DNA from: Crocinitomicaceae bacterium
Lineage (GTDB): Bacteria; Bacteroidota; Bacteroidia; Flavobacteriales_D; Sanyastnellaceae
Length of the DNA stretch: 41,041 nt
Assembly (NCBI GenBank): GCA_002690915.1
Contig: NZGF01000044.1
Coordinates: 1-41,041, forward strand
Direction: 5' to 3'
This document shows positions 521 through 37,601 of this stretch, one piece after another (position 1 is the first letter of the stretch; every line of letters begins with the position of its first letter). The notes under the pieces were generated by a model. The model worked only from the letters and a program-made list of their open reading frames with translations, did not search any database and was not told where the DNA came from. Position numbers and translations under genes: made by a program.

Positions 521-3500
521 TCAATCACAAGAAAAGCCATAATCCATCAGAATTAAGAGCAAATCATTGGTTCCAACCACCCCATCTCCATCAAGATCAC
601 CTGGGCATGAAGTGTCTTCCACGCACAATTGGAAATCTTCATTCCATACCGTGCCTTCACCGCAGTATTCCGGGCCGCCTGTGCATTGGGACAAGCCAAA
701 CGCTATCCCATCATCGTATCCAGCACCGTACCCCTCTGAATATTCATTGAAGAGCAGGTTATCAATTTCATCGCAAACGCCATTGCCGTTGGCATCATTG
801 ATGCACTCACCAGAGCAATCGTAGTAAAGACCAGCGATGTAACACGTACCTGGGTCCGTCGCCAGGGTATCGTAATTGCACGCCTCCGGGTTCTGACAGC
901 CCACGACTTCGTCCGCATCGCACACACCATCTGCGTCTGCATCGTTTTCTACCACTGTGCCTGTACCATCCATTTCTCCGGAGCACGAGTCACAATCCTC
1001 GGGATAGTCACACGTTGCAGGATCGGTAGCCAGTTCGTGGTAATTACACGCTACTGGATCTTGGCATCCCGCGACTTCATCCGCATTGCAAACCCCGTCT
1101 CCGTCATCATCATTCGCCACTACGTTGCCCATTCCGTTATTTTCGCCTGAACACGTCTCGCATCCAGTCGCGTAGATGCAGCTTCCGTCGCTGTCCGTAG
1201 CAAGCCAGTTGAAGTTGCACGCCAAGCTATCCTCGCAACCTGACACCTCGTCGATGTCGCAGACGCCGTCGTCATCCAAATCCAAATCATTCACATACCC
1301 CGTGCCGTCCGATGCATTCCCTGCGCACACATCGCACCCCACCGCGTACGTGCAATTCCCAGCCTCATCCGTAGCACCAGCGTTATAATTGCAAGCCATT
1401 TCATTTTGACATCCGGGTACTTCGTCTGCATCGCAAACGTCATCCCCGTCCAAATCGTTGGTCACAACCGTTCCCGTTCCGTCGATTTCACCGGAGCAGA
1501 TATCGCAAGGTTGCATCACATAAAGGCATGAGGCTGCGTCGGTGGCCAGTTCATTGTAATTGCACGCAGCACTGTCCTCACAGCCCAAGACTTCGTCCGC
1601 ATTGCAGACACCGTCACCATCGTCATCATTGGCCAATACTGTTCCAGTTCCGTCTGTTGCGCCGGAACACGACTCACAGCCTGAGGGATAAATGCAGTTA
1701 ATTCCAGGATCGGTTGCTGCTGCATTGAAGTTGCAGGCAGCATAATCTTGACAGCCTTCGACCTCATCCGCATCGCACACTTCATCGTCGTCCGCATCAT
1801 TGTCTACCACTGTACCAGTGCCATCCGTGAGGCCCGAGCAGGTATCACAGCCACTTGCATATAAGCAAGACACACCCGAATCGGTGGCATCGGCATTGTA
1901 GTTGCATGCCAAAGAATCTTGACAACCAACAACCTCATCGGCATCACACACGCCGTCATCATCCAAGTCATTTTCCAAAACTGTCCCTGATCCGTCTGTT
2001 TCGCCGCTGCACGTGTCGCAAGCGTCCACTGTATACTCACAAGATCCGGCATCGGTTGCTGCATCGTCGTAGTTACATGCTGTCGAATCCTCACATCCTA
2101 CCGTTTCATCTGCATCGCAAATGCCGTCGTCATCGGCATCGTTGTCCACAATTGTTCCTGATCCATCGGTTGCGCCGCTGCACGTATCGCATCCAAGCGG
2201 GACAAGGCATCCTCCGTCGTCCACAGTTGCGGTATCCATGTAGTTGCATGCATTGGAATCCATGCACCCATCAATCGCTGGAATACAGCCACCTCCGTCA
2301 TGCACCGCTTCCTCATCGTAGTTCAACGCAGTTGTATCAATGCAACCGCAATCTTGGTAATTGGACGACAGAGAACCAGACCAGCTGTCTGCCGAGAATG
2401 TACCTACTCCGCTGAATTGAAAATGCTCTGTGTGGTAAACGCCAGAGCCGTACTCGCCATTTCGTAAAACCGAAACTGAGAATTCGCCAGAGAGTGTTCC
2501 AGTAGTAGTAATTTGACCAACCAATACACGTCCATCATCTCCTGCTACGGCTGGGTGATTGGGATCGCAAGAGCCAGCGGGGTCTCCGGGCGGCAATTCG
2601 CAGTTGGGACTGTTATAAATGGAGAAACCCGATTCCGAGGTGACGTTGATGTCTTCTCCAGCGTTAAAAGCAGACCAAAATTCGTCTCCAACGGAACCTG
2701 CGACTGTGTAGAATTCACTCCAAGGGCCAAATTCAGAGCCAATGGTCATCCAGCTGTCGTAGGCCAATTCAGGAATAAAGGACAAATGAATTGGCAACAT
2801 CTCCCATGCAAGGTCTGTTCCAGCTGTATCGTTTTGGTACCAGTTTGGGGTTGACGTAGATGTCAACACAAAAGGCTCCGAAACGGTTCCAGGGGATTCT
2901 CCGTAAATGCTGTTCAAGTAGTCATTCGGATGCTCCAAGTTCACATACAAACGATATGTGGTGTGCCCCGGAATGCCATCCACCGCATACTCCTCGACAG
3001 TCAAACTGTATGGAGACAATCCTGTCAATTGTCCACAAGAACAGAATTCACATGAGTCATCTGAATCCGTAGCCAAAGCATTGAAATTACATGCTGTGGC
3101 ATCTTGGCAGCCCGCTACTTCTGCTACATCGCATACCCCATCACCATCCGTATCACCCGTTTCGATTGTACCTGTACCATCAATCGCACCCGAGCAAAAA
3201 TCACAGTCCGTAGCGTAGATGCACGAGCCTGAATCGGTAGCGTCAGCATCGTAATTGCACGCAGCACTGTCCTCACAGCCCAAGACTTCGTCAAGGTCGC
3301 AAACCCCATCGTCATCGCTGTCGTTGTCCACGATTGTGCCACTTCCGTCAGTATCGCCTGAACAAGATTCGCAGATATCGTCAACAACTATGCATGTTCC
3401 GGCATCTGTTGCTGCAGTGTTGTAATTGCAAGCGTTGCTGTCTTGGCAACCCACAATCTCATCCGCATCGCACACGCTGTCGTTGTCAGCGTCGTTATCG

Positions 3501-4600
3501 ATCACAGTCCCTGTTCCATCCGTCGCGCCTGAACAGGTTTCACAACCCTCTGGGAAGACGCAAGAAGAATCTTCTTCTGTGGCTGATGCATCGTAGTTGC
3601 AGGCGAGATTAGAGGTACATCCATCAATCTCCAATTCATTGCAAATGCCGTCGCCGTCCGCGTCATTGATGCACTCCCCTTCACAATCGTAATATAAATC
3701 CGGAAACTGGCAAGAGCCGTTGTCAGAAGTGGCTAAGCTGTAATAATTGCACGCATTGGTATCGGTACACCCTTCAATGATGGGAAGCCCCATAGAACTC
3801 CCATTGAAGGATTGTGTAAGAACAACTGAATTGGTTGAATCGCCATCGACCCAAATCTCAGCGTTCAATGTCCATGTAAACGGCGCATTGGCAGTTAGTT
3901 GCATGACCAATGCGAGTTGGTCATCTCCTCCGAAACCATTGGTGGCATCATCGCTTTCCAGGTACCAGCCCTCCATCGCTGATGAACTGAAATCAATCTC
4001 AACTGCTCCATAATTCCCACTTGGGTTCAATCCGTTATTGAAATTATCGGACCACGCGTTGCCATCTGATTCAATAAGTTCAACATCCTCCTCACCTGCA
4101 ACAATATCTGGAAAACTGGTCAGTCCAATGCCAACCCAGGAGTCAGCAAGAAAACCATAATCCGGGTAAGGATAGGTTCCCAATGTCGGCACGCCAAGGG
4201 GCGTTGCGCCGCTACAAAGCCAATCGTTGTAAATTCCGTCAGGAGCAACAATAGAAGCGGGAAGCTCTGCATCTCCAAAAATGCGCTTGACATAGTCGGT
4301 TTCATTCGCCGTATTAACATACACGCGAAAGACGGCGTAATCGGTTAAATCATAATTCGCCCCTCCCAATGTTGCTGCAACTGCATCTGTGCTGGTCTGG
4401 ATAAATTGGTAATGTTCAGTTGACGAGACAACTGCGGGTACCAGCGGTTCAAGGACAGGAACTACCGGATCATCAAATCTCGAAAGCTTATCGCTGGCAA
4501 AAGCCGCAAAAACAGAGTTGAACAAACAGATCGAAACGAATGCAAAGAAACACGTATAGCGTCTCCAGCTCGTTGCAGTGGTATTGGCAAATGAGCACAT
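521..4600 (-). CDS. Secreted Cys/Asp-rich repeat protein with EF-hand C-terminal tail
   Basis: 1359-aa exported protein of unknown function. A hydrophobic stretch at about residues 17-35 fits a signal peptide. Residues ~60-275 form a domain with a YVNTANETDYV...IFGD start and an ADSWVGIG core; a second copy lies at ~524-736 (YRLYVN, YDSWMTIG, QITTTG). The rest is two arrays of ~57-aa repeats (five units, then ten), each beginning GC-D-x-x-ACN-Y/F, carrying six Cys and ending in an Asp-rich DDDGVCDADEV stretch like thrombospondin type 3 calcium loops. The protein ends in CPGDLDGDGVVGTNDLL plus a short tail, a single EF-hand, instead of a recognisable T9SS type A or B domain. It is probably a calcium- and disulfide-stiffened surface or matrix protein (inference). 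It has its own terminator, and a weak TACTTTAG -7 box lies at 4623-4630. Confidence 0.9.
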   Translation of the reverse strand: MCSFANTTATSWRRYTCFFAFVSICLFNSVFAAFASDKLSRFDDPVVPVLEPLVPAVVSSTEHYQFIQTSTDAVAATLGGANYDLTDYAVFRVYVNTANETDYVKRIFGDAELPASIVAPDGIYNDWLCSGATPLGVPTLGTYPYPDYGFLADSWVGIGLTSFPDIVAGEEDVELIESDGNAWSDNFNNGLNPSGNYGAVEIDFSSSAMEGWYLESDDATNGFGGDDQLALVMQLTANAPFTWTLNAEIWVDGDSTNSVVLTQSFNGSSMGLPIIEGCTDTNACNYYSLATSDNGSCQFPDLYYDCEGECINDADGDGICNELEIDGCTSNLACNYDASATEEDSSCVFPEGCETCSGATDGTGTVIDNDADNDSVCDADEIVGCQDSNACNYNTAATDAGTCIVVDDICESCSGDTDGSGTIVDNDSDDDGVCDLDEVLGCEDSAACNYDADATDSGSCIYATDCDFCSGAIDGTGTIETGDTDGDGVCDVAEVAGCQDATACNFNALATDSDDSCEFCSCGQLTGLSPYSLTVEEYAVDGIPGHTTYRLYVNLEHPNDYLNSIYGESPGTVSEPFVLTSTSTPNWYQNDTAGTDLAWEMLPIHLSFIPELAYDSWMTIGSEFGPWSEFYTVAGSVGDEFWSAFNAGEDINVTSESGFSIYNSPNCELPPGDPAGSCDPNHPAVAGDDGRVLVGQITTTGTLSGEFSVSVLRNGEYGSGVYHTEHFQFSGVGTFSADSWSGSLSSNYQDCGCIDTTALNYDEEAVHDGGGCIPAIDGCMDSNACNYMDTATVDDGGCLVPLGCDTCSGATDGSGTIVDNDADDDGICDADETVGCEDSTACNYDDAATDAGSCEYTVDACDTCSGETDGSGTVLENDLDDDGVCDADEVVGCQDSLACNYNADATDSGVSCLYASGCDTCSGLTDGTGTVVDNDADDDEVCDADEVEGCQDYAACNFNAAATDPGINCIYPSGCESCSGATDGTGTVLANDDDGDGVCNADEVLGCEDSAACNYNELATDAASCLYVMQPCDICSGEIDGTGTVVTNDLDGDDVCDADEVPGCQNEMACNYNAGATDEAGNCTYAVGCDVCAGNASDGTGYVNDLDLDDDGVCDIDEVSGCEDSLACNFNWLATDSDGSCIYATGCETCSGENNGMGNVVANDDDGDGVCNADEVAGCQDPVACNYHELATDPATCDYPEDCDSCSGEMDGTGTVVENDADADGVCDADEVVGCQNPEACNYDTLATDPGTCYIAGLYYDCSGECINDANGNGVCDEIDNLLFNEYSEGYGAGYDDGIAFGLSQCTGGPEYCGEGTVWNEDFQLCVEDTSCPGDLDGDGVVGTNDLLLILMDYGFSCD
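760..2350 (-). repeat. Cysteine/Asp repeat array B (about ten units)
   Basis: Tandem coding repeats of ~171 bp (56-57 aa) inside the 1359-aa gene. Each unit has the spacing GC, AC, SC, C..C, VCD with six cysteines. Units differ at many positions but keep Cys, Asp and the ACNY core. One stretch of 42 bp at 1556-1597 is identical to 3251-3292 in array A, a sign of recent exchange between the two arrays. Confidence 0.85.
3031..3772 (-). repeat. Cysteine/Asp repeat array A (about five units)
   Basis: First run of the same ~57-aa module, between the two copies of the ~200-aa domain. The first unit differs: it carries a YYDCEGECINDADGDGIC ending that recurs in the very last unit of array B, so the whole repeat region is bracketed by similar edge units. 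The fifth unit is cut short after SCEFCSCG, where the second domain begins. Confidence 0.8.
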
Positions 4601-15498: not shown

Positions 15499-18400
15499 TT
15501 AGTATTTCAAGGTTACGGTTCCCGTGATCGGAGCCTTGTCACCGGCAAATTCAATTACATAATAGTAATCCGCTACTGGTAATGGAGCATTGTTGTAACG
15601 GCCATCCCAACGTTCCTGGTAACCTCTCGAATAGAACATCTGCTGGCCCCAACGGTTGAAGACCCTTACTTCTGCGGTTGGGAAGTATTCCAAACCACCA
15701 ACAATCCAGTCATCGTTGTAGCCATCACCGTTCGGTGTGATGGCTTCCGCAATGAAGAAACATCCAATGGTCGGTTCAACCGTGACCACGCGTGTCAAGG
15801 TGCACCCCAAGCTATCGGTGACCACAACCGAATACGTGTCCTCATACAAACCCGTTGCTGTGACTGTCGTCTGGGCATCGCCATCGCTCCAGAGGTATTC
15901 GATGGGCTGAAATCCACCAATAACTGAGGCCGTCGCTGTTCCGTCTTGTTCGTTCCAACAAGTGACTGGAGAACTCAGCATGGTGATGAGCATATCAGTG
16001 TCCACTTCAGCTGCCACCGTGAAAGCCGTGTCTTCAATGCATCCCGTAGAGTCAATCGCTGTGACGTTGTACACGCCTTCGTAGAGGTTTAAGAGGTCAA
16101 TGCCATCTTCCAAAACTTCCCAACTGATATCACCGGTGCCCCCGATCGGAAAAATATTAACCTCTCCGTCCTTCATGCCAGTGCACGTCACGTTGGTCAC
16201 ATCGATGAGGACCTCAATGGGGTCGGGCTCCATGATTTCGAACATGGTCGAATCCATGCAGCCATTCCCATCCACGACGGAGGCCGTGTACTCACCCGCA
16301 CAAAGCGCAGCGAAGTTATAATCTTCACTTCCATTAAGCGTCAAAAATACTGCGCCTGTCCCACCGCTGAAGTCCACAATAGCGGTGCCATCACAATCAC
16401 CACCGCACACCACATCTTCCAAGAAGAGCCATTCGACTATCAGCGAATCCGGCTCAAAGATGTCCCCTGCTTCGGTGATTAGGCATCCGTTCTCGTCTTG
16501 AACCGTCACACCTATGGGCCCTTCATCAAGGCCTTCCAACGTGTACGGTAACGCACCTTCTTCAGGTTGGACCAAACTAAGAGCTCCTGTCCCGCCGATG
16601 CCTTCAACGGTCAACATTCCGTCGGCATATGAAGTACAGGTAATTTCGGTTTGTGTCAAGATAAGCTGGATGGGATCTGGTTCAATAAGCAACTGGGGGT
16701 CCGAACTCACTTCACATCCCACCTCATCCACAACTGTCACCACATAGGTGCCTGCGGCTAAATCAAAGCAGGGGTCGAATTGAAATGCTCCAGCAGGTGG
16801 AGCCACTTGGAAACTCAATGCTCCGGTTCCACCGGAAGCGTTTTCCACACAAATCGATCCATTCGTCTCGCCATTGCAGGTTACATCTTGGATAACCACG
16901 TCAAACAAAATGGAGTCAGGTGCCATCACTTGGAACGCCTCCTGTACCACGCAACCGTTCTCATCAGTTGCATTGGCTATGTAATCTCCCACGCACAAGC
17001 CCTCGTCATCGTATTCATTTTCATCTGCATCCGAGACAGAATAATCAAAAACCCCAGACCCTCCGAACGCCGCGATATTTACCTCTCCATCGCAGGCCTC
17101 CGAACAGAGCAGGTCACTCACAGTAATCTGCATGGTGACTGCGTCTGGTTCGATTATTGTTACTTCCGTAGAGTCTTGGCATCCATTGTCATCCGTAACC
17201 AAAAGGAAATATTGCGCTGCTTCGAGATCCGTGACCGTAAAATCTACCGAACCTACTCCAGAAATATTGACACCCAAATTGGGTGAACCAGACAGTGTAA
17301 GGGTTCCCGTACCCCCACTCATGCTTCCCTCGATGAGGCCATCGCCGTATGCAAAGCATGTAATATCATCGGCCGTAGCTTGAAGAATTACGGGGTCAAT
17401 GCAGGAAATGGTAATGGATGTGTCGAGCGAACACCCGTTGGCATCCGTAATATCAAATTCCCATTCCCCGTCTCCATTGACGCATTCAAGTCCCACCCAC
17501 TGGTTATTGGGGTCGGGTAGTACACCGGAGCCCGTGTTAGTCGCAGAATAACCAACGATTTGATAGTTCGGAGTTCCACCCGAATAGTCTATTTCAATCA
17601 CACTACCCAAGTCCCCTGGGCATATGTTATCTTGAATCAGCTCCCAGCTGGCTTCAAGTTCAGTTGGCTCAACAAATGAAAATACCGCCGATGAGTCTCG
17701 GCATGTATTACCGTCCACGATGGCTACGAAATAATCACCTTCAGGTAAATCAATGAATTGATTGTCATCAACCTGGGTTGAAATCACCGAACTATCAGCC
17801 GCATTTAGCAATTGATATGTCATCGGAGCAGCCCCGTTTACATTGACTTCGACCGCTGCCAAATCCCCGAAGCAATCGATTGAATTGTCTACGACAACGT
17901 TGGCATCATTTTGTGCATAGTTGGCACAGGGATTCAGCACGGATTCAGGGCCAGTGCCATCACCATCCATGCACCACTCTTGGAATGGAGCCTGTACCCC
18001 TTCTACGAACACTTGAAAACACGCTTGAAACTCAAAATCTCCACATGTGGTGATTTGAGCGAACTGGATACGCAGATCGTCTCCTGCCGCTTCAGGAACA
18101 ACCGTAAAAATGAGACCGCCATCTTCTTGTTCGGCGCACATGGTGGTTGAACTGTAAGCCGGGTTGCTACCCGTGTATTGCTCGCCAGTCGCAAAGCCTA
18201 AGGTCCAGTAGGTATCGAATTCGACCTCCGGAAAGAAATCAAGCAGCGCAGGGTTTTGAGCTCCACCGAGCAATACATCGCCCAATTCCGGATTGAAACA
18301 ACCACATGGCGCATTGATGTAAAACGCTTCGGTTCCGAGAACAACAGCATCTGAATAGATGGCGCTCAATTCATCCGTAGGATTGGTAAACTCTGCAAAT

Positions 18401-18639
18401 AGCTTGTATGTCACAAACCCATCCAATTCTTCGAATAGCGGAATCAAATTCCCGTCTCCGTCGACATCGAATGTCGTGGGTTCATAAAACGCGGTATCAA
18501 CTTCCCAGATAACTCCGGTCATCTGAGCGGAAGCTGTAAAGGTGACCAAAGCCATAACAAATACGGTGGACAGCACTCGCAGGCAAGAGTCCACCGCGCC
18601 GCGGTAGGTTGAGGGGTGAGAATTCACGAGTTCTTTCAT
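15499..18639 (-). CDS. SprB-repeat adhesin with T9SS type B C-terminal domain
   Basis: 1046-aa exported protein. The start at 18639 (MKELVNSHPSTYRG) leads into a signal peptide ending TASAQ; a longer start at 18684 is possible. Residues ~41-225 are another copy of the shared domain (YKLFAEFTNPTDELSAIYSD, FDTYWTLGF, FAQITTCGDF). Then come about nine SprB-like Ig repeats with the pattern VTCxGxxDGxxxVxxxGGTG. The last ~88 residues are the gliding-motility-associated type B sorting domain (AITPNGDGYNDDW, VRVFNRWGQQMFY, end TVTLKY). It is first in the operon with PorP/SprF. Likely a surface adhesin, possibly motility-related (inference). Confidence 0.93.
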   Translation of the reverse strand: MKELVNSHPSTYRGAVDSCLRVLSTVFVMALVTFTASAQMTGVIWEVDTAFYEPTTFDVDGDGNLIPLFEELDGFVTYKLFAEFTNPTDELSAIYSDAVVLGTEAFYINAPCGCFNPELGDVLLGGAQNPALLDFFPEVEFDTYWTLGFATGEQYTGSNPAYSSTTMCAEQEDGGLIFTVVPEAAGDDLRIQFAQITTCGDFEFQACFQVFVEGVQAPFQEWCMDGDGTGPESVLNPCANYAQNDANVVVDNSIDCFGDLAAVEVNVNGAAPMTYQLLNAADSSVISTQVDDNQFIDLPEGDYFVAIVDGNTCRDSSAVFSFVEPTELEASWELIQDNICPGDLGSVIEIDYSGGTPNYQIVGYSATNTGSGVLPDPNNQWVGLECVNGDGEWEFDITDANGCSLDTSITISCIDPVILQATADDITCFAYGDGLIEGSMSGGTGTLTLSGSPNLGVNISGVGSVDFTVTDLEAAQYFLLVTDDNGCQDSTEVTIIEPDAVTMQITVSDLLCSEACDGEVNIAAFGGSGVFDYSVSDADENEYDDEGLCVGDYIANATDENGCVVQEAFQVMAPDSILFDVVIQDVTCNGETNGSICVENASGGTGALSFQVAPPAGAFQFDPCFDLAAGTYVVTVVDEVGCEVSSDPQLLIEPDPIQLILTQTEITCTSYADGMLTVEGIGGTGALSLVQPEEGALPYTLEGLDEGPIGVTVQDENGCLITEAGDIFEPDSLIVEWLFLEDVVCGGDCDGTAIVDFSGGTGAVFLTLNGSEDYNFAALCAGEYTASVVDGNGCMDSTMFEIMEPDPIEVLIDVTNVTCTGMKDGEVNIFPIGGTGDISWEVLEDGIDLLNLYEGVYNVTAIDSTGCIEDTAFTVAAEVDTDMLITMLSSPVTCWNEQDGTATASVIGGFQPIEYLWSDGDAQTTVTATGLYEDTYSVVVTDSLGCTLTRVVTVEPTIGCFFIAEAITPNGDGYNDDWIVGGLEYFPTAEVRVFNRWGQQMFYSRGYQERWDGRYNNAPLPVADYYYVIEFAGDKAPITGTVTLKY

Positions 18640-18738
18640 GAATGGTGTTTCAGGGTCTGCACGTAGAACGAGCTGCTTTTGCAAAACGTTGCATGCTCAA
18701 TTGAAAGCGCAAAATAGCGGAATTCCACTACATGAGCA

Positions 18739-24671: not shown

Positions 24672-25388
24672 TTAGTTCAATGCTCGAGCGCGCAAGGATT
24701 CATACAGCGGCTCTGTTTCGTCCACTAAAGATAATAACCGCTCTTCGACGGGCGGTAAGGACGCAACGTCGGATGAGGACTCCATTTCCCAGCCGGTTGA
24801 AGCGTGCACGCGATGGTACCAGTACTTGGCCCACAGGCCGTCCTCTTCCCGATGGCCTGCCCGCCATGACAGCATACGCGGATCAAAGTCCAGGTCCACC
24901 CAAGCCATGATAGCCCGTAGGGAGCTCTCTGGCTCCGCGACCAAGCGATCGGAATCCACCACTGCCACCGGCCAACCCTCCGTCTGGCAACGTTCAAACC
25001 AACGTTGTTGATGATGGTAGCAAAGATCGAGTGCCGTGGGAGCGTCAATGTGCGCGAGGTAGGACTTCAACACCTTACGCGGATGGCGGATGAGAAGCAC
25101 ATTCCTGTGCGCCGCGAAATCTTGCGGCTCCGGCCAGCCCTCCAAGTGATTGGCCATGTGCTTGAGGAACACATGGGTTTCGTTGCTCTCGAGCGTGGGC
25201 AGGATTCTCGCTCGACTGGTGGGCATCGTGGCCAGCACCTCTGCACGTGACGGGCGATTCGCACCCGTTTGATCTAAGAAATGGGCAAACAAAGGCTCAT
25301 CCACAACTCCAAAGTCCTGCCTCTGCGCGAAGCTGTACATCAAAGCTGTACTGCAATTACGAGGCCCAGACCAGAGGGAAATGGTCAT
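24672..25388 (-). CDS. Sulfotransferase-like P-loop protein
   Basis: 238-aa soluble protein. SGPRNCSTALMYSF at residues ~7-20 is a PAPS-type 5'-phosphate-binding loop, and VLLIRHPRKVLKSYLAH resembles the 3'-phosphate-binding region of sulfotransferases. Proteins of this group occur beside class IV aminotransferases in diverse genomes, as here. Whether it transfers sulfate is not shown; key residues of the acceptor side cannot be judged. It starts 5 nt after the CotH gene stop and ends 3 nt before the aminotransferase start, so it is part of one polycistron. Confidence 0.8.
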   Translation of the reverse strand: MTISLWSGPRNCSTALMYSFAQRQDFGVVDEPLFAHFLDQTGANRPSRAEVLATMPTSRARILPTLESNETHVFLKHMANHLEGWPEPQDFAAHRNVLLIRHPRKVLKSYLAHIDAPTALDLCYHHQQRWFERCQTEGWPVAVVDSDRLVAEPESSLRAIMAWVDLDFDPRMLSWRAGHREEDGLWAKYWYHRVHASTGWEMESSSDVASLPPVEERLLSLVDETEPLYESLRARALN

Positions 25389-25393
25389 CCGGT

Positions 25394-28300
25394 TTACCGA
25401 ACGACCGTTATACTTCCGGAGTAACTCCGTGGCACCATCTCATGCACCGATTGAACCTCCAAGCGATACATGTATTGTCCATCGCGGACAAAGTGATCAC
25501 CGCCTTGGTGCTGTCCAATCCAAGGTTCAGTAGGGTCAAACGATTCAAACACCTTTTCGCCCCAACGGTTGATGACGGTGAGGTGGTACGTCTCGGCCAC
25601 AAATGACTCGCCGACAGGCAAGAACGCATCATTCAAACCATCATTGTTGGGGCTGAATGCGGCGGGCACATAGACCGCAAAATCGATGGGTACGAAGTAC
25701 GCCACGATCTCTTCCTCGTCCTGTTTTGGCAAGGTGATGTTCGCCGTCGTTGCACTTGGATTGGGAGCAGCGTTAGCTATTTCCCACCGGTCAAACGCCC
25801 AATATTCAACAGGGGCCGCTTCCGCGTTGAGCAAGCCCGCGATTTCTAGGCCACCTTCCCATTCATCGGTCACAATGACCGCACCGCCTTCTATGCGCAC
25901 CACGCCTTTGTTAGGCGGTTCCACACGGACCTTTAGGTCGCTGTGTTCAATCACATTGAAGTGGGCAGTGTACGTGGCCGGTTCTGTAACTGAAATGCTC
26001 CCCGCTGGATTAGCCATCGACGGAGCCACTAATGGGCCTGTTGAAGACCATCCAGTGAAGACGTGCCATTGATCCAGTCCAACGGTTTGAACGTCATGTG
26101 CACCGTAGTCGAGCAATTCCGTGGCAGGATAATTCAAAAGCGCTGTTCCATCCACGTAGATCTCACCTGCGCCAGGAGGGTCCACCACAAAAGTGACCTC
26201 TTGAGGATCGGCGTTCGAGGCGAAGTAAGCGACCAAAGTCGCGTCGCCGTTCAGGGTGAATCCGAGGTACGGATTGGTGGGGTCGTTCAGGGTGATGTCC
26301 CCGTCCAGCACTTGCCAAAACAAGAAAACCTCACCCATGGATTCTTCAGCAGTTAGCTCCATCGGAACCCCAGCAAAATAGGTAGCATCCATCGGTACAT
26401 CGTACGGACCGATATCCACCGAATTGACCTGGACCTCTCCCATGCCGTCGATGATGAGCGTCAGCGTCACGGATTCCACTTCATAGCAATCTTCAAGGCC
26501 ATTGATGAGCATTTCTGCACATCGCTCTTCAATGAAGTCGTGGATTTCGTCCACATTGGCCATCCAACCATCGTAGGTCCCACCCCAACGGTCGATGTGC
26601 CGATCCATCTCGGGTTCGATGACGTTGATCATACTGTCGAGCACAGCATGCATGTTGTCACAACTGAAGTGCGTGTTGCTCAAATCGGCCCAACGATTGA
26701 TGTAGGTCGCCCAGAAATCCTCGTTTTCCATCAAGGAATTGAAGATGGGGATATGGCCTTGGCCGCCTACGTTTCCAAGCGATTCCGGATTGCAGGGATC
26801 GGCGTCAGCATCTTGGGACGGCACACCGGTATAGTTCGCACCGTGACCAAACGTGTTGTCCATGTCCCACAAAGCGTAGCGCCACTTCTTGCCGCTGCCG
26901 TCGGGATGGCGGCCGCGCCACCATGCAGTGTTCCAGTTCAACCAGTCGGCGCATACCGTAAAGGAATTCAGCAGGTAGTAGTCGATCAGGCTCATCACGT
27001 TGTATACGCTCGTCACGTAATCGTAGTTGTCCGGATCAGTCATGTCCTGGCCGGTCACAAAGTTCACCAACGGCATCCAATCGGCATCGTCTCCATATTC
27101 GATCCAGGTGCCGCCCCATGTCTTGATGAAATCAACAAAGTGACGCGGTTGATCATAGTACGCTGTAGTGAAATCGAGATCATCCACCTTTTCGCGGTAC
27201 TCGTAAACGCCCCAATATTGACCGTTGAGGTAGACGATGCAGCTTTCGTTGGTTCGCTCATCTACGTGCAGATCGGCTAGATGACTGAGCGTCTGGACAT
27301 ACGCATCGCGGATGTGTCCACCGCCGGAGCTTGGGTAGTTGTCGTTCGCCGCTGCCTTGAAAATCAAACGCTGGTACACATCGCGTTCCTTCACGTGGAA
27401 GAGCGGCTCTAGCAAGCCGTAGCTGTGGCCCATCTGGTCGCGGGTGATGTAGTCAAAACCCTTTTGGGGATAGGCATTCGAGTCGTTGCCGTGCTCGTTG
27501 GAATCGCCCGAGCCTTCGCACCAGTACGTACCGTCGGGATGGAAAAACTCGATGTGGCAGGGCTCATCCGCTCCACCTCCCCAGCCACCTGGCCACTGGC
27601 CGTCTTCTTGGTCATCGCCTGAAACAGAGACCACAATGATGTTGTGGTTATCATCTCCTGTGAAGTATGTGTTGGTGTTGATATGCGAATCAGCGTATGC
27701 ACCGGTGGGGTCAAAACACCGCGATCTGATCACAGTTGTTTCATTAACCGTAATGGGACCTGTGTACAAGTTGCTACCAGCATTCGGGGCATACCCGTCT
27801 GTTGTGTATCGGATTTCGTAACCAGCAGGAGCTGTGATCGCTACGTTGGTTCCACCTGCATAGTAACCGGACTCTTCTTGAAATTCTGGTGTTGGCGCAT
27901 ATTCCGTGTAGAAGCTCCCTCCATTTGAGTTTCCAGGTGTGGGGTTCGTGCACACACGCCACTGGCCCGCTACGCCGTCGGTGTCCCGCGACCAACTGTG
28001 GTCCGCCTGTGTCGGCGTCCAGTCTTCATAAAAGGTGTAAGACTCGAGGACATTCCCTGAAGGATCTGAGAATACAACCGATTCCCCCATCGTTTGCGTC
28101 ACCTTGAAATTGGTGTTCAAACTCCCGCCGATGTACAGGTTCTCGGGAACTTCCCCCTCGTTGGAGCAAATAATCAGCAGGTATCCGCCTGCTGGTACGG
28201 TCGTACCCGCCGGAATTTCAAACATTTGCGGATTGTCCGGATTGTCTGACAACCAGTGGCCGTCGAGGTCAACCTCCGTGGGTCCTTCGTTGTAAAATTC

Positions 28301-28447
28301 GATGTAATCTTCGTTGTCTCCGTTGACGCCCAGCGTGTAGTTGCTGGCCGAAAACTCATTGATAATGACTTGCGCTGAGGCTGCTGTGGCAACCAAGCAC
28401 GCAAAGACAGCAAGGAAAGGGGAGTTCAAGAGGTGCTTACGCATCAT
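25394..28447 (-). CDS. CotH-kinase domain protein with T9SS type B C-terminal domain
   Basis: 1017-aa exported protein. Signal peptide (residues 1-25, ending AASAQ); lamin-tail domain ~26-170 (VIINEFSASN); chitobiase-type C-terminal-like domain ~185-265 (YEIRYTTDGYAPN); CotH kinase domain ~275-650 with GVYEYREK (413-420) and the metal-binding WDMDNTFG (527-534); two InlB-type bacterial repeats ~665-905; and a type B sorting domain from ~925 (AAFSPNNDGLNDAFLP, VINRWGEKVFES, end SITVVR). CotH proteins are atypical protein kinases, known from spore coats. The start overlaps the stop of the lysyl-oxidase-like gene as ATGA, so the two are coupled. Activity here is inferred. Confidence 0.93.
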   Translation of the reverse strand: MMRKHLLNSPFLAVFACLVATAASAQVIINEFSASNYTLGVNGDNEDYIEFYNEGPTEVDLDGHWLSDNPDNPQMFEIPAGTTVPAGGYLLIICSNEGEVPENLYIGGSLNTNFKVTQTMGESVVFSDPSGNVLESYTFYEDWTPTQADHSWSRDTDGVAGQWRVCTNPTPGNSNGGSFYTEYAPTPEFQEESGYYAGGTNVAITAPAGYEIRYTTDGYAPNAGSNLYTGPITVNETTVIRSRCFDPTGAYADSHINTNTYFTGDDNHNIIVVSVSGDDQEDGQWPGGWGGGADEPCHIEFFHPDGTYWCEGSGDSNEHGNDSNAYPQKGFDYITRDQMGHSYGLLEPLFHVKERDVYQRLIFKAAANDNYPSSGGGHIRDAYVQTLSHLADLHVDERTNESCIVYLNGQYWGVYEYREKVDDLDFTTAYYDQPRHFVDFIKTWGGTWIEYGDDADWMPLVNFVTGQDMTDPDNYDYVTSVYNVMSLIDYYLLNSFTVCADWLNWNTAWWRGRHPDGSGKKWRYALWDMDNTFGHGANYTGVPSQDADADPCNPESLGNVGGQGHIPIFNSLMENEDFWATYINRWADLSNTHFSCDNMHAVLDSMINVIEPEMDRHIDRWGGTYDGWMANVDEIHDFIEERCAEMLINGLEDCYEVESVTLTLIIDGMGEVQVNSVDIGPYDVPMDATYFAGVPMELTAEESMGEVFLFWQVLDGDITLNDPTNPYLGFTLNGDATLVAYFASNADPQEVTFVVDPPGAGEIYVDGTALLNYPATELLDYGAHDVQTVGLDQWHVFTGWSSTGPLVAPSMANPAGSISVTEPATYTAHFNVIEHSDLKVRVEPPNKGVVRIEGGAVIVTDEWEGGLEIAGLLNAEAAPVEYWAFDRWEIANAAPNPSATTANITLPKQDEEEIVAYFVPIDFAVYVPAAFSPNNDGLNDAFLPVGESFVAETYHLTVINRWGEKVFESFDPTEPWIGQHQGGDHFVRDGQYMYRLEVQSVHEMVPRSYSGSITVVR

Positions 28448-31365
28448 TGAATATTCAATTGGCCGGTAAATACTGGCATTGCAGGTCCAGATAAGGTATA
28501 AAGGTAGGTTCCACTGCGCAGTGCTCCGCGGTCAATGGTATAAGAGGTGCCTGTAGGGCTCGCGGTGTGCACCAAACGGCCCGTTGGATCGGTGATGGTC
28601 AACTGCATGGGCTGCCGGGTGGGATTGGCAAACCGCAACGTGGCATAGTCCGTCATGGGATTGGGATACAGCATGGGCGCTTCGGCATCGATGGCCAAGC
28701 CCAATCCACTTGAAGTAACACACCCATCCTCAATAACATTCAACGTATTATGGTAATCTTCGTTGACTACATCGGTTACGAAATCAATGCATACCTCGTC
28801 TCCGATGGAGGCCCAGTACAGGCGTATGAGTGGAGTAAACTCGTAATGCTTGGGAAAGCTCGTGTCTTCGTAAGACAGACCAATCACTTCCACTCCACCA
28901 GGGGTAAACGACGGGGTAATGGAATACTCTAGTGGGTCCGCAAGGCTCACAGCTGAGGAAATCGCCATACCGCTCATCGAAAACTGGTACCCGACGATGC
29001 GGTTGTTGGGATTGTACACATGAATGTCCATGTACTGCTGACCCCAATTGACGGCTCCGACGGTGAAGTGCACTGTATCAAACGGGTTCACAATGTGGTT
29101 GACCGGGAAGTCACACTTGTCGTGGATTCCGGAACTATCGGGGTGCTGGTGCAGCTCGTTGAACAGCTGACACAGCGCCAGGTGTGCTGCATCCGTAACC
29201 GTAATGTCATCGTCTTGGTCAACATCCGTGCAAGGCAAGGCTTCGATGTCATCGCCTAAGATGTGCTCAACGTACGCCACGGCGTCGGCATATTCTTGCG
29301 CCCCATTATAATCGAGATCACCCATCAACGCCGTACCGTTGCAGTCGCCGTTGCAATCAGCCACGGCCGTTCCAAATTCCGTCCCTTCGCAGTCGCTAAA
29401 CGGCTCGCAGTCCCCCATCACATCCACCTGCAATTCACCGGTCGATCGGTCGAGGTTGATGCAGACTGCTGCGTGGTTGTTCTCGTAGGAATTTTCAGCC
29501 CGACCGAGAGCATCCGGAATGAAGTCATAGTTTGCGCGAACGATTAAATAATACGTTCCGTCAGCTACATCAGTGACGTCAATCCACTGACAGCTCAACC
29601 CGGAACCGTAAATGTCACCGCAGCCCGCTGAAATGCCCATATTGCCACATCCGTATTGGGCCGTTCCACCTCCGCTGCACTCCAAGTCCATCACGCAAAA
29701 CCCGTTCTTAAATCCAATGGGAATGTATTGTCCATCAATTGTAAACAGATCGTACTTGGCGTAGCCTTTGTGGTGCCAATGGTTGTGACAATCGCCCCAT
29801 TCGAACTGGTTGTTGTCTGATTGGCTCGGCACACCGATATAATAGTCCAATGTCCCGATGTTCAAAATGTGCGTTGTGAAGCGCACCAACTCTCGGTCGC
29901 CGTAACCGTTCAAGCAGCCCTCGTCGATGTAGCAGTCGGTCTCGCCCACCTGCATGACTTCGGTTGAAAGGCTGTTAACGATGGCTTCTGCACTCACAAT
30001 CAAATCTGGACCGGTGCAATCCGGATCTCCGGCATAGATGCAATCTCCACTGTCCACCTCTGCGAGCGGATTGTAATTGCACGCTTCTTCATCGGTGCAA
30101 CCCGTTGCCGGACCGGCAAAATTGAACTCCCAATCAAAGCCATCGGCACATGTACCATCGGGATCGGCCAACAACAACTCGGCATCGAAACTGATGTCCG
30201 AACTGGTCGCATTGATCTGGTGAACCTCAACCGCCAACACATTCAATCCGTTGTTCATATTGAGAACGACAGGGTATTCGTACAAGTCCGATTCGTTGCC
30301 GCCTATGATTTCACTAAGCGCGGTGGTTTCGGAATTCACAAATCCCTCGGGCATGTTGCTCCGCATAATCTCCACCCCATTGAGGTACACCACAGCTCCG
30401 TCGTCCCGGCGCAACCGCAGTAGCCCCTCCATTCCCGTTCCCGCTTCTCCATTGTATTCAAACGCATGTCGGAAGTATGTCGTTATGTGTTTGTCCGATG
30501 CGTTGTCGCCGTAGGATAGCGTGGTCGCTTCGTCGCCGTCGCCATAACCCAGTTCAGCGCTTCCAGCATCCCAATCTAAATCTTCGTAATCCACTGCAGT
30601 CCAATCCGTCCCGAGGTCAGTGCCTTGATCATGGTAGTTCCACTCGGATTCGAGGCCAACCAATGCTTCATAATCAGGTGATCCAAGCCCCATACGAATC
30701 CAAACAGGGACACCACTTTCCAACAGCACCGTCAAATTAGCTTGCTCCCCGCACCCCCCTTCTTGGTCGTCGAAATAAATGGAGCCTTCATTTGTATTGT
30801 CGAAGTAGCCCATGTTGCAGTAATCGTAGATCCAGAGTTTGGTGTCGCAGCCGGATTCACAGGTATTAAATTCGTACATGCCGTTTGCAGGAGGTGTAAA
30901 TACGTACCACGCGTTCCCCTGTGTTTGAGCAAGGGTGCCGTAATCAGCCTCGGTGAGTTCAAAAGCATCGTTGCACGTCGCACCCGGGGCGCAATCAAAG
31001 TTCACGGTCTCGCCGTACCCGTAGTTGCCCCCAGACGCGATCTCTACACCGTCTTGGTAGAGCCAGTAGCCGCCCGGCGCAAAAATTCCATCGCCGTATG
31101 AATCGAACATGGAGAATTGAAGGCATGGCTGCTCAATGCTCGCATCAAAACAAATTACATCACCTTCTGCTGCACCGGATGCAATGACATTGCCCATGTA
31201 AGACAATTCCCACGAAGTTTCGTTCGGGTAACCGTCGGGTTCAATTACTACTTCAATCGCGGTCTCATTTTCCGCGCATTGACCCCAAGCGGTTGAATTG
31301 GCAAAAACGTTGAACAACACAAACGAGAATGGGAGGAAGAATAATTTTGCACGGAATAATGACAT
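28444..31365 (-). CDS. Lysyl-oxidase-like multidomain protein, T9SS type A cargo
   Basis: 973-aa exported protein; ATG at 31365 chosen over an in-frame TTG at 31374. Domains: signal peptide to ~28; N-terminal domain ~30-125 shared with the 640-aa protein; PPC-like region ~130-225; a W-x-Y-x-D-x-G beta domain ~240-400 (AELGYGDGDEAT); one GCTDEEACNYNP module; lysyl oxidase domain ~451-639; paired dockerin-like loops ~682-735; a cohesin-like beta domain; and a type A sorting domain (LYPNPMTDYATLRF to the end). The oxidase part keeps WGDCHNHWH (His527, 529, 531), FKNGFC (Lys553) and DIYG...CQWIDVTDV (Tyr586), matching copper-site and LTQ residues of animal LOX; one copper-side His is Gly. Probably oxidises lysines of surface proteins (inference). 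Confidence 0.92.
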   Translation of the reverse strand: MSLFRAKLFFLPFSFVLFNVFANSTAWGQCAENETAIEVVIEPDGYPNETSWELSYMGNVIASGAAEGDVICFDASIEQPCLQFSMFDSYGDGIFAPGGYWLYQDGVEIASGGNYGYGETVNFDCAPGATCNDAFELTEADYGTLAQTQGNAWYVFTPPANGMYEFNTCESGCDTKLWIYDYCNMGYFDNTNEGSIYFDDQEGGCGEQANLTVLLESGVPVWIRMGLGSPDYEALVGLESEWNYHDQGTDLGTDWTAVDYEDLDWDAGSAELGYGDGDEATTLSYGDNASDKHITTYFRHAFEYNGEAGTGMEGLLRLRRDDGAVVYLNGVEIMRSNMPEGFVNSETTALSEIIGGNESDLYEYPVVLNMNNGLNVLAVEVHQINATSSDISFDAELLLADPDGTCADGFDWEFNFAGPATGCTDEEACNYNPLAEVDSGDCIYAGDPDCTGPDLIVSAEAIVNSLSTEVMQVGETDCYIDEGCLNGYGDRELVRFTTHILNIGTLDYYIGVPSQSDNNQFEWGDCHNHWHHKGYAKYDLFTIDGQYIPIGFKNGFCVMDLECSGGGTAQYGCGNMGISAGCGDIYGSGLSCQWIDVTDVADGTYYLIVRANYDFIPDALGRAENSYENNHAAVCINLDRSTGELQVDVMGDCEPFSDCEGTEFGTAVADCNGDCNGTALMGDLDYNGAQEYADAVAYVEHILGDDIEALPCTDVDQDDDITVTDAAHLALCQLFNELHQHPDSSGIHDKCDFPVNHIVNPFDTVHFTVGAVNWGQQYMDIHVYNPNNRIVGYQFSMSGMAISSAVSLADPLEYSITPSFTPGGVEVIGLSYEDTSFPKHYEFTPLIRLYWASIGDEVCIDFVTDVVNEDYHNTLNVIEDGCVTSSGLGLAIDAEAPMLYPNPMTDYATLRFANPTRQPMQLTITDPTGRLVHTASPTGTSYTIDRGALRSGTYLYTLSGPAMPVFTGQLNIQ

Positions 31366-31390
31366 GGGCTTCAATTTGGCGGTCAGTCCT

Positions 31391-31639: not shown

Positions 31640-33757
31640 TCAATGCACGACGGTCATCTCTCGGACAAGGTGGCCAGCTCCCGCGTACACGTCCGTGATC
31701 CAAAGCACGTAGCGGATGTCGACCATAATATTGCGGCACCGAGACCCGTCGAACAGAATGTCACTCATGGTCGATTCCCATGAGCGATCAAAATTGATGC
31801 CAACGAGGTAACCATCACCGTCGATAGCTGGTGAACCCGAGTTTCCGCCAGTGGTATGATTGGAGCCCGTAAAGCATACAGGAAGCTCTCCCTGTTCATT
31901 CGCATACGGCCCCCAGTTACCGGCTTCAAGCGCCGCAACCAAATTCGCAGGCAAATCAAAATCGGCATGGCCTGGGACATATTTCTGTAGGATGCCATTC
32001 GCAGTGGTAAACGGCAGATAGGCCATGCCATCGTAAGGAGATGACCCCTCCACTTTTCCATAAGTCAGACGCAAGGTGCTGTTCGCATCAGGAAAAAATG
32101 CACGCTCTGGGAACAATGAACGCAATCCATTGGTATACATGCCCGTCAACGAATCAAGTTCCAATGAAGCTGAGCCATACACGGCAGCAACGCGGTCGAA
32201 ATACGCATTTCGCATGGATTTAATGAGCGCGTAAAGGGGGTCTTTTGAAAGCTTGGCAAAAGCCTTGGCCTTTCCTTTGGCGAGCAGTTCTTCCACCGCA
32301 TCGCGATCGTCGAAGATGGACTTATCGTAGGTACGTTGCGCCCAGTCACTCGGATTGGAAACTGCAGCCCGCAGTGCATCTGGGACAAAAGCCGGATCTA
32401 TGTGATTAAAATATGGGACCACCAAAGCGGCCAAAATATCCCGGTCTACGACAGCGTCGTATTGCCGAAAGTGACCTTCGGTGCGGTCCTGCAGCTCCTC
32501 AAGCACAGCATCAATTTCACCTGCTGCCTCCGTCGCTTCCCAACGTTCAACAAGCGGCGCAAAAGACCAGGCGAAGTTTAACGCGTCTGGACCGTAATAC
32601 ACCCATTCGATGAACAGACTCCTTGCAAGCATGTACGGATTGCGCTCGGCGTTTGCAGCCTGCATTTTACTGATTAATTGCATCCACGGCACGTTATCCG
32701 CCTCTGCTGCTCGTGCCATGAATTCCGCCTCAAGTTCGAGTTTCTTTCCCACGGCATCCAACTCGTTCAATCCAGTGTTCTGCCCAATCCATTTCTTCCA
32801 AGCGTTCGCTATCGAACTCTGCTTGTCCGCATAGGCAATCCGCAAAGCTGCCGAGCTGGCCCGCGCGGCATTGACCACGTCCAAGGAAGCGTCGCGCATT
32901 TCAATGCGCGCGGGGTTCAAGTGCTCAACCACGTATGTCACCGCATCGCTTGTCAAGTATTGTTCAGTGCGGCCCGGGAAACCGAATACCATGGTGAAGT
33001 CCCCCTCTTTCACACCACCAAGATCCACAGGGAAATGATGTCCCGGTTGGAAAGGCACATTGGACTCGTTGTAATCGGCAGGCTCGTTGTTGGCGTCAGC
33101 GTAAATCCTGAACATACTGAAATCGCCGGTATGGCGCGGCCAAACCCAATTATCTGTGTCTCCTCCAAATTTCCCCACTGCCGACGGAGGCGCTCCCACC
33201 AATCGGACGTCGCGGTAGGTCTTGGTCGTAATCAGGTAAAAGCTGTTACCAAAATCAAAGGCCACCACCTCAGCCTCGAGACCAGTCCCATCAGTGACTT
33301 GGGCCACTAAGTCCGCCTTGGCGGCTTCTGGATCCTCCGCAGTGCGAACGGTTTCAGTCACATCCTGAATGCGATCGATGAACGTGGCCACCAAGTCTGG
33401 GTTGACCAGCTCTTCCGACCGCGTCATGGCCCAAAACCCATCCGTCAAGTAGTCGTTTTCTACGGTGCTGTGGTATGCAATTTGTCCGTAACCGCAATGG
33501 TGATTGGTCAATAAAAGCCCCTCCCCACTGATCATTTCCGCTGTACATCCACCATTGAAATGAACAATGGCGTCCTTCAAGCTGCCTTGGTTGATGCTAT
33601 AAATGTCTTCAGCCGTCAAATGCAAGCCCATCGCCTGCATGTCGCCTTCGACTGCCTGGAGCAACGTGGGGATCCACATGCCCTCCTTGGCTTGAATTGT
33701 AGCGTATGAAATGGAATATGCGCAAAGCAAGAGGATGGGAATGAATCGGTTGGTCAT
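31640..33757 (-). CDS. S46 family dipeptidyl-peptidase, DPP11-like (Asp/Glu-specific)
   Basis: 705-aa serine exopeptidase that removes N-terminal dipeptides from peptides in the periplasm. Signal peptide at the start (ISYATIQAKEG); catalytic His in LLLTNHHCGYG (residues 86-87), nucleophile Ser640 in TTGGNSGSPAIDG. Arg658 in INFDRSWESTMSDI stands 18 residues after the serine, the same offset as Arg673 of Porphyromonas DPP11 that selects Asp/Glu at P1; DPP7 has Gly there. It ends 21 nt from the convergent miniprotein and is divergent from threonine aldolase. Family certain; specificity is a residue-based inference. Confidence 0.93.
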   Translation of the reverse strand: MTNRFIPILLLCAYSISYATIQAKEGMWIPTLLQAVEGDMQAMGLHLTAEDIYSINQGSLKDAIVHFNGGCTAEMISGEGLLLTNHHCGYGQIAYHSTVENDYLTDGFWAMTRSEELVNPDLVATFIDRIQDVTETVRTAEDPEAAKADLVAQVTDGTGLEAEVVAFDFGNSFYLITTKTYRDVRLVGAPPSAVGKFGGDTDNWVWPRHTGDFSMFRIYADANNEPADYNESNVPFQPGHHFPVDLGGVKEGDFTMVFGFPGRTEQYLTSDAVTYVVEHLNPARIEMRDASLDVVNAARASSAALRIAYADKQSSIANAWKKWIGQNTGLNELDAVGKKLELEAEFMARAAEADNVPWMQLISKMQAANAERNPYMLARSLFIEWVYYGPDALNFAWSFAPLVERWEATEAAGEIDAVLEELQDRTEGHFRQYDAVVDRDILAALVVPYFNHIDPAFVPDALRAAVSNPSDWAQRTYDKSIFDDRDAVEELLAKGKAKAFAKLSKDPLYALIKSMRNAYFDRVAAVYGSASLELDSLTGMYTNGLRSLFPERAFFPDANSTLRLTYGKVEGSSPYDGMAYLPFTTANGILQKYVPGHADFDLPANLVAALEAGNWGPYANEQGELPVCFTGSNHTTGGNSGSPAIDGDGYLVGINFDRSWESTMSDILFDGSRCRNIMVDIRYVLWITDVYAGAGHLVREMTVVH

Positions 33758-36784: not shown

Positions 36785-36790
36785 CGTGAA

Positions 36791-36821
36791 TTGGATTCGC
36801 TCGCGTCAAACGCTAGCTTTG
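36791..36821 (+). promoter_or_regulatory. Promoter of yaaA
   Basis: TTG (36791-36793), 20 nt spacer, TAGCTTTG (36814-36821): the best full match to the Bacteroidota -33/-7 promoter in this window. The ATG at 36831 is 9 nt downstream. It lies inside the longer open frame from 36786, ruling that start out. Confidence 0.65.
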
Positions 36822-36830
36822 CGCTTCTTT

Positions 36831-37601
36831 ATGATTGTCCTACTTTCTCCCTCCAAAACCATTTCATTTGAAGATGCGCCTCTGGCTGAGCCATGTACGG
36901 TGCCTTCGCTTCTTTGGTGGTCAGAAAAGTTGATGAGCCGGATGAAGCAATTGAGTACAAAAGAAATTGAACAGCTAATGAAAGTCAATGCCGGCATTGC
37001 TTCCCGGACAGCCAAGTGGGCTGATGACTGGTGCGTACCTTTCACTACCTCCAACTCTCGGCCCGCGGCCCATTGCTTCAAGGGTGCCGTCTACACAGGA
37101 CTCCAAGCCCGCATGTGGAGCAATTCCGATCGGGCTTTTGCCCAACGCCACCTTCGCATCTTGTCCGGATTGTACGGCGTATTAAAACCGCTTGATCTCA
37201 TGCAGCCGTATCGGCTTGAAATGGGATTGAACTGGACCATCAACCCCAACGAACCCAACCTTTATGCCTTCTGGGGCGAACGCGTCCAGGAACACGTCGA
37301 ATCTGAGTCCAACGGTTTGATCATTAATTTAGCCAGCAAGGAATACAGCAAATCAGCCCTATCCAATGCTTACACGGGACGTGTTATCACCCCCGCGTTC
37401 AAGGAGTTGGTTGGTACGGAATACAAAGCCAAGATGGCCTACGCCAAAGAGGCACGGGGTACCATGGCAAGGCACATCATCCAAAACCAATGGACGAACT
37501 CTGAAGACCTAAAACAGTTTAAAGGAATGGGCTATGCCTATAATTCCCAACTTTCATCAACCGACGGCTGGGTGTTCACCCGTGACGTCTCAACCACGTA
37601 A
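36831..37601 (+). CDS. yaaA: YaaA family (UPF0246) peroxide-stress protein
   Basis: 256-aa cytosolic protein. It begins MIVLLSPSKTISFEDAP, the family N-terminus, with GAVYTGLQA, LRILSGLYGVLKPLDLMQPYRLEMG and NLASKEYSKS as further hallmarks. E. coli YaaA lowers free iron and protects DNA under peroxide stress and has a DNA-binding fold. The start is fixed by the promoter overlapping the longer frame. It ends 10 nt before the FKBP gene and may be co-transcribed with it. Confidence 0.93.
   Translation: MIVLLSPSKTISFEDAPLAEPCTVPSLLWWSEKLMSRMKQLSTKEIEQLMKVNAGIASRTAKWADDWCVPFTTSNSRPAAHCFKGAVYTGLQARMWSNSDRAFAQRHLRILSGLYGVLKPLDLMQPYRLEMGLNWTINPNEPNLYAFWGERVQEHVESESNGLIINLASKEYSKSALSNAYTGRVITPAFKELVGTEYKAKMAYAKEARGTMARHIIQNQWTNSEDLKQFKGMGYAYNSQLSSTDGWVFTRDVSTT

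Follow-up and report, generated by a model that had tools for sequence, protein, structure and literature searches.

The question raised by this locus is what a lysyl oxidase (LOX), carrying the cofactor residues of the animal enzymes, does in a Crocinitomicaceae protein that bears the marks of a substrate of the type IX secretion system (T9SS). The window, meaning here the whole analyzed stretch of 41,041 nucleotides (assembly GCA_002690915.1, contig NZGF01000044.1), contains a minus-strand open reading frame at 28444-31374 that specifies a protein of 973–976 aa; comparison with homologues of the same architecture places the gene at 28444..31365, i.e., 973 aa from an inner ATG, with a TTG start at 31374 being possible. 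The gene is predicted to encode a secreted, surface-held amine oxidase of the LOX family that depends on copper and on the lysine tyrosylquinone (LTQ) cofactor, a reading to which we assign a probability of roughly two in three. It draws on the domain match, the predicted fold, the three histidines, the lysine and tyrosine, the cysteines, the sorting domain, the T9SS machinery of the genome and the gene order. The protein is a genuine representative of an enzyme family already known, and is probably active.

The lysyl oxidase domain and its catalytic residues

The catalytic domain occupies residues 451-640 (29446..30015, minus strand). The profile search that a sequence-only reading of the locus had proposed recovers PF01186 at residues 457-639 (Pfam, E 2.7e-32), its 112.5 bits standing well above the curated cut-off of 20.4, and a phmmer search of the PDB matches residues 449-629 to human LOXL2 (5ze3, E 2.3e-24) with 33% identity over 177 columns. 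In this alignment, CHNHWH lies over CHRHYH, K553 over the lysine of HKASFC, Y586 over the tyrosine of DMY, and CQWIDVTDV over CQWVDITDV. We take H626, H628 and H630 of LOXL2 to be its copper ligands and K653 and Y689 to be its LTQ pair; the predicted counterparts in the window are the ligands H527, H529 and H531 (motif at 29773..29787), the LTQ lysine K553 (29707..29709) and the LTQ tyrosine Y586 (29608..29610), all on the minus strand. The predicted fold of the domain is that of the LOX catalytic domain. The claim of that earlier reading, namely that a T9SS-exported protein harbors a LOX domain in which the LTQ pair is intact, is thus borne out by the PF01186 match, the LOXL2 alignment and the sorting domain described below.

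A 2015 survey (Grau-Bove et al., PMC4448552) identifies K320 and Y355, together with the copper motif, in human LOX, and describes the three histidines, the lysine and the tyrosine as widely kept in all LOX groups. According to the same text, bacterial, fungal and amoebozoan LOX lack the first histidine of the copper motif, and neither copper binding nor oxidation changes significantly when it is substituted. The LOXL2 alignment places a glycine at this position in the window domain, leaving the three of four histidines that had been read from the sequence. The animal-type cysteine spacing noted in that reading also holds: each of the nine LOXL2 cysteines in the aligned stretch has a cysteine of the window domain opposite it, and in a 43-row alignment eight of these are invariant and one nearly so.

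In this respect, the domain differs from the other bacterial LOX compared. The Gemmatirosa and Streptomyces clavuligerus proteins (L127, L128, L129) share the H.H.H pattern, lysine and tyrosine with the window LOX, whereas of the nine LOXL2 cysteines Gemmatirosa keeps only four and the two S. clavuligerus sequences one and two. With the LOXL2 stretch as BLAST query, the window domain scores 106 bits, Gemmatirosa 56, S. clavuligerus 53 and 47, and two weak PF01186 matches from elsewhere in the phylum (L032, L033) about 33. Among the few sequences compared, the window LOX thus resembles the animal enzyme far more closely by sequence than do the Gemmatimonadota and Streptomyces LOX. In a 12-row tree with one animal, three bacterial outgroup and two divergent sequences (L071b being left out), LOXL2 joins the Bacteroidota LOX with support of 87/89 (not starred), with both LOXL2 and Gemmatirosa on long branches; as the set is too small for deciding origin, this closeness is only a lead. 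The survey text leaves open a bacterial transfer of LOX to opisthokonts (PMC4448552). The sequences L032 and L033 are themselves divergent LOX-like proteins of other Bacteroidota, with two and three of the nine LOXL2 cysteines; H.H.H, lysine and tyrosine are kept in both.

All five catalytic positions are present in 92/92 distinct LOX domains (121 rows), a count that leans to intact copies because the underlying loci were picked with motif-bearing peptide patterns: 80 of them are the best 80 of 337 retrieved with patterns including GFKNGFC or CQW, and those from the genome profile search are likewise the best-scoring ones. This conservation, outside which lie the two divergent proteins above, bears on the possibility that the LOX fold has been retained merely as a non-catalytic binding domain. 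Such a role appears scarcely plausible, given the five residues kept across that sample and the greater drift of most other parts of the protein in most homologues, with LOX being the best kept of nine protein regions in 17 of 24 full-length homologues.

Export, architecture and probable exchange of the catalytic part

The C-terminus (residues 895-973; 28447..28683, minus strand) is a T9SS type A sorting domain, matched by Pfam at residues 899-959 (E 8.6e-9) and in agreement with NCBIfam TIGR04183. A recognized type A sorting domain is found in 30/38 aligned full-length proteins, the window's included, at E up to 0.1. The genome encodes SprA (1851 bits against a cut-off of 200) and PorV (128.7 against 90) family proteins and has 66 PF18962 matches.

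Between the catalytic and sorting domains lie a dockerin-like part (residues 681-740; 29146..29325, minus strand), which forms two helices in the predicted model, and a beta sandwich (residues 759-885; 28711..29091, minus strand; predicted local distance difference test, pLDDT, ~66-91), the cohesin-like part of the sequence-only reading. For the former, profile A4 matches the CelS dockerin 1daq with E 2.6e-4, the best among solved dockerins in the PDB. The dockerin type I family PF00404 has no Pfam match in the window protein itself; it is matched in 3/38 aligned proteins (best E 0.0052), and the homologue L028 has a match of E 6.3e-9 at the place corresponding to the dockerin-like part. No cohesin was matched by sequence for the beta sandwich in the Pfam scan or in the profile comparison with the PDB, and none is among the matches listed in the structural comparison. 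By sequence, the core of LOX, dockerin-like part and beta sandwich is kept within a T9SS protein, a combination not seen in the literature searched. As a separate observation, the LOX frames of L028 and of another homologue, L012, also contain PF11617, a putative metal-binding motif of the MopE type, with three stretches in L012, and this could relate to metal supply.

The N-terminal half is less readily classified. Residues ~1-28 (31282..31365, minus strand) would constitute the signal peptide, being hydrophobic as judged by eye and with helix 10-22 in the predicted model. Two beta-rich parts follow at residues 29-232 (30670..31281, minus strand), in which the model has a mixed pLDDT (mostly 65-88, lower around 184-210) and for which no Pfam match was found. 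Residues 231-402 (30160..30675, minus strand) resemble the N-terminal domain of GH2 enzymes, and this domain is missing from 10/24 of the homologues compared. The full-length model (mean pLDDT 66.9, predicted template modeling score 0.34, LOX part poor) was used for domain borders and for the C-terminal and GH2-like domains only; LOXL2 is not among the 50 matches listed in the structural comparison reported beside it.

The history of the catalytic part appears to be distinct from that of its flanks. In trees built separately for the LOX domain and the flanks from 26 of the 38 rows of alignment A3, the window clade groups with L047, L108, L054, L042 and L049 on the LOX tree (support 98/95) and with L088, L092, L093 and L095 on the flank tree (78/86, not starred). 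Forcing the flank grouping on the LOX tree is rejected by the approximately unbiased test with p 1.5e-5, as is the LOX grouping on the flank tree with p 0.0018, both values being optimistic because the groups were chosen after earlier trees had been seen. Pairwise identities parallel this: the window protein and L047 are 90% identical in the LOX domain, 55% in the N-terminal part and 43% in residues 761-973, as against 70%, 69% and 66%, respectively, with L093. The simplest reading of these sequences is that the LOX domain was swapped as a cassette by recombination between lineages.

Gene neighborhood and distribution

Directly downstream of the LOX gene lies a gene for a CotH-kinase-like T9SS protein (25394..28447, minus strand; LTD, CHB_HEX_C, CotH and CHU_C domains in Pfam), whose ATG overlaps the LOX stop codon by 4 nt. 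Its PF08757 match reaches 110.2 bits against a cut-off of 23.8, and it resembles T9SS cargo, with PF13585 above and TIGR04131 below the respective cut-offs. All CotH homologues scoring >1000 bits (39/39) retain an Asp and a WDxD motif, and from the sequence we infer that these represent D228 and D251 of CotH. The protein is the weakest of five CotH matches in its genome, yet above the cut-off; by sequence it matches nothing in the PDB at E up to 10, and a paralogue from the same genome weakly matches 5jd9 (Spore coat protein H, E 0.26). According to the accessible text of PMC7821199, a CotH-family kinase of Bacillus subtilis modifies outer-layer (spore-coat) proteins; compared with that system, the putative kinase here is part of a T9SS-type protein and sits beside a LOX gene.

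Upstream, on the same strand, is a DPP7-like S46 peptidase gene (31640..33757, minus strand; PF10459, E 6.4e-209). A sulfotransferase gene (24672..25388, minus strand; PF19798) comes next in the run after CotH, and has moved or is not seen beside CotH in many related loci. Elsewhere in the window is a YaaA-like peroxide-stress gene (36786-37601). The neighbors followed in related loci were the S46 peptidase, CotH, an SprB-repeat protein, threonine aldolase, EamA, aminotransferase and sulfotransferase genes, and their counts are not independent because the loci are relatives. Of 80 loci, 75 have a LOX frame of >500 bits followed by 500 nt or more of sequence, and in 42 of these CotH comes next on the same strand; 70 loci extend for 700 nt or more ahead of LOX, and 51 of these have the S46 peptidase upstream. 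Between genera, divergence at fourfold sites is close to saturation (46/57 differ in the N-terminal part between the window and L047), and the S46-LOX-CotH order persists despite that divergence, the sulfotransferase and aminotransferase genes having moved. An extension of the association to distant loci was considered and rejected, with no CotH beside LOX in L109-L113, the five of lowest identity among the 80; L113 has one CotH-like frame far from LOX. Among the 17 loci of a second LOX lineage, nine have next to LOX a frame from the cluster represented in L100 by a GSDH-type dehydrogenase. Two loci (L071:18051-20585 and L081:15566-18589) have a second LOX with a PKD domain a few kb off on the opposite strand.

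The peptidase invites the main rival explanation, in which a surface LOX would deaminate free amines, polyamines or lysyl peptides as a source of ammonium and carbon, and the S46 dipeptidyl peptidase would belong with it to one set of proteins for peptide use. Apart from its upstream position in those 51 loci, this is favored by the LOX of Haloterrigena turkmenica, which is likewise prokaryotic but archaeal, and is likened here by description rather than by sequence: it is an active amine oxidase of relaxed specificity, accepting glycine, taurine and GABA (gamma-aminobutyric acid), and has been proposed by its authors to contribute modestly to nitrogen supply (PMC6452851). This relaxed specificity is compatible with crosslinking as well as with scavenging. 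The gene directly downstream is nevertheless CotH-kinase-like rather than a transporter or dehydrogenase for amines or aldehydes, and a large, tethered protein is ill-suited to simple scavenging. Moreover, of the 51 loci, 43 have 150-367 nt between the S46 and LOX frames and six have 1.5-2.1 kb, the open frames overlapping in the other two; with such a range, co-transcription cannot be assumed. Scavenging is hence the less likely role, if one to be taken seriously.

In terms of distribution, PF01186 is found in 100/114 genomes of the bacterial family, and in 45 of the 50 with completeness of at least 90% and contamination of at most 5%. At the level of the order, 136/299 genomes match, inclusive of those 100/114; the 36 matching genomes among the 185 outside the family include 13 strong ones (E <1e-20, counted from the listing). 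An even sample of the phylum yields 4/392, i.e., the window's own genome, one of the same family and two weak matches. The 80 related records are labeled mostly Flavobacteriales, and also Crocinitomicaceae, Bacteroidetes, Saprospiraceae and Sphingobacteriales, with two contigs of one assembly labeled Euryarchaeota. Among 72,556 plasmid records, tblastn matched the domain in seven, six from Streptomyces and one from Gemmatirosa, and three of these records were retrieved. These figures qualify the earlier description of the protein as unusual: no such T9SS and dockerin-like setting was found in the literature searched, but within its bacterial family it is no oddity, as PF01186 occurs in most genomes and the sorting domain in most of the full-length proteins.

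They also bear on whether peroxide or aldehyde production might serve as a surface weapon or defense. By family chemistry the reaction releases peroxide, and PMC6452851 describes the archaeal enzyme as active on several aminoglycosides and polymyxin; the neighbors followed in related loci, however, suggest no role in killing or immunity, and presence in most family genomes better fits housekeeping. We regard such a role as very improbable.

Targets and function

If the protein is the surface-held amine oxidase proposed above, it would cross the inner membrane by its signal peptide, fold and bind Cu(II), with LTQ forming by oxidation of Y586 to a quinone and coupling of that quinone to K553, as expected from family chemistry. 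It would then pass the outer membrane through the T9SS, the sorting domain being cut and the protein held at the surface, where it would convert lysine side chains or other primary amines to aldehydes, ammonia and hydrogen peroxide. Its targets might be the surface or matrix proteins of the cell itself, with the aldehydes giving crosslinks and the co-encoded CotH-like kinase modifying the same layer; this part is put forward tentatively, at somewhat short of even odds.

Several points weigh against this picture. The signal peptide is assigned by eye. A region other than LOX is better kept in 7/24 homologues, namely the dockerin-like part in four, a short repeat in two and a linker in one. No CotH adjoins LOX in 33/75 loci, and the 17 loci of the second lineage showed no CotH and no S46 next to LOX, so that CotH is not obligatory for LOX. 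Membership of the family does not in itself imply action on protein lysine, given that glycine, taurine and GABA are substrates of the archaeal enzyme. The search of the genome for collagen found no LOX substrate: of four PF01391 matches, those on L121 and L123 were set aside as antisense of a QDQ-repeat frame, and the other two fall in one secreted-looking protein of 527 aa (L122:676-2259, contig C5), the sole real collagen-like protein of the genome, which has no lysine in its interrupted collagen-like stretches. Collagen as a substrate is thus not convincing. The long QDQ repeat of L121 and L123 lies at two contig ends (C19, C5), as though a single gene had been split in the assembly.

Self-protection through lysine avoidance was also considered. 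Lysine makes up 0.8% of the LOX protein and 0.1-1.3% of four further large proteins in the window that look exported; two large, very acidic ones (521-4600, without a Pfam match, and 15499-18684) have 0.1% and 0.6%. Across the five best-scoring T9SS cargo stretches in each of six genomes, lysine amounts to 1.2% and 1.8% in the LOX-bearing G000 and G053, and to 0.8%, 1.6%, 2.0% and 2.9% in G016, G025, G002 and G048, which have no PF01186 match. The idea was dropped, as arginine is low too and cargo lysine has no clear link to the presence of LOX.

The enzyme class is not new, because bacterial LOX with these residues, including those of Bacteroidetes, were published in 2015 (PMC4448552). Compared with the bacterial LOX in the accessible part of that survey, the protein here is a multidomain T9SS protein present in most genomes of one family; compared with LOXL2, it has T9SS export and a dockerin-like part instead, with no SRCR match in Pfam. 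A literature search short of most subscription journals found no paper linking LOX with T9SS, dockerin, CotH or flavobacteria, nor any report of LOX across the family genomes, the CotH/S46 neighborhood or the cassette replacement. What has not been found in print is thus the T9SS setting, the dockerin-like core, the CotH partner and the presence in most genomes of a family.

A bolder and doubtful proposal is that this represents a Flavobacteriales counterpart of animal matrix maturation, in which a LOX with animal-type cysteines and a co-encoded CotH-type kinase, both T9SS-exported, would act together on the surface layer of their own cell, modifying and crosslinking it, the LOX belonging to a bacterial group ancestral to the animal and fungal enzymes. 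The accessible text of PMC6452851 calls the job of prokaryotic LOX enigmatic or cryptic. With most genomes of the family keeping a LOX with intact catalytic residues, within a conserved surface protein and often beside a kinase-like gene, that job becomes testable in bacteria with named partners; and, since no other bacterial LOX in the comparison is as similar to the animal enzyme, the protein bears on the origin of the animal crosslinking enzyme.
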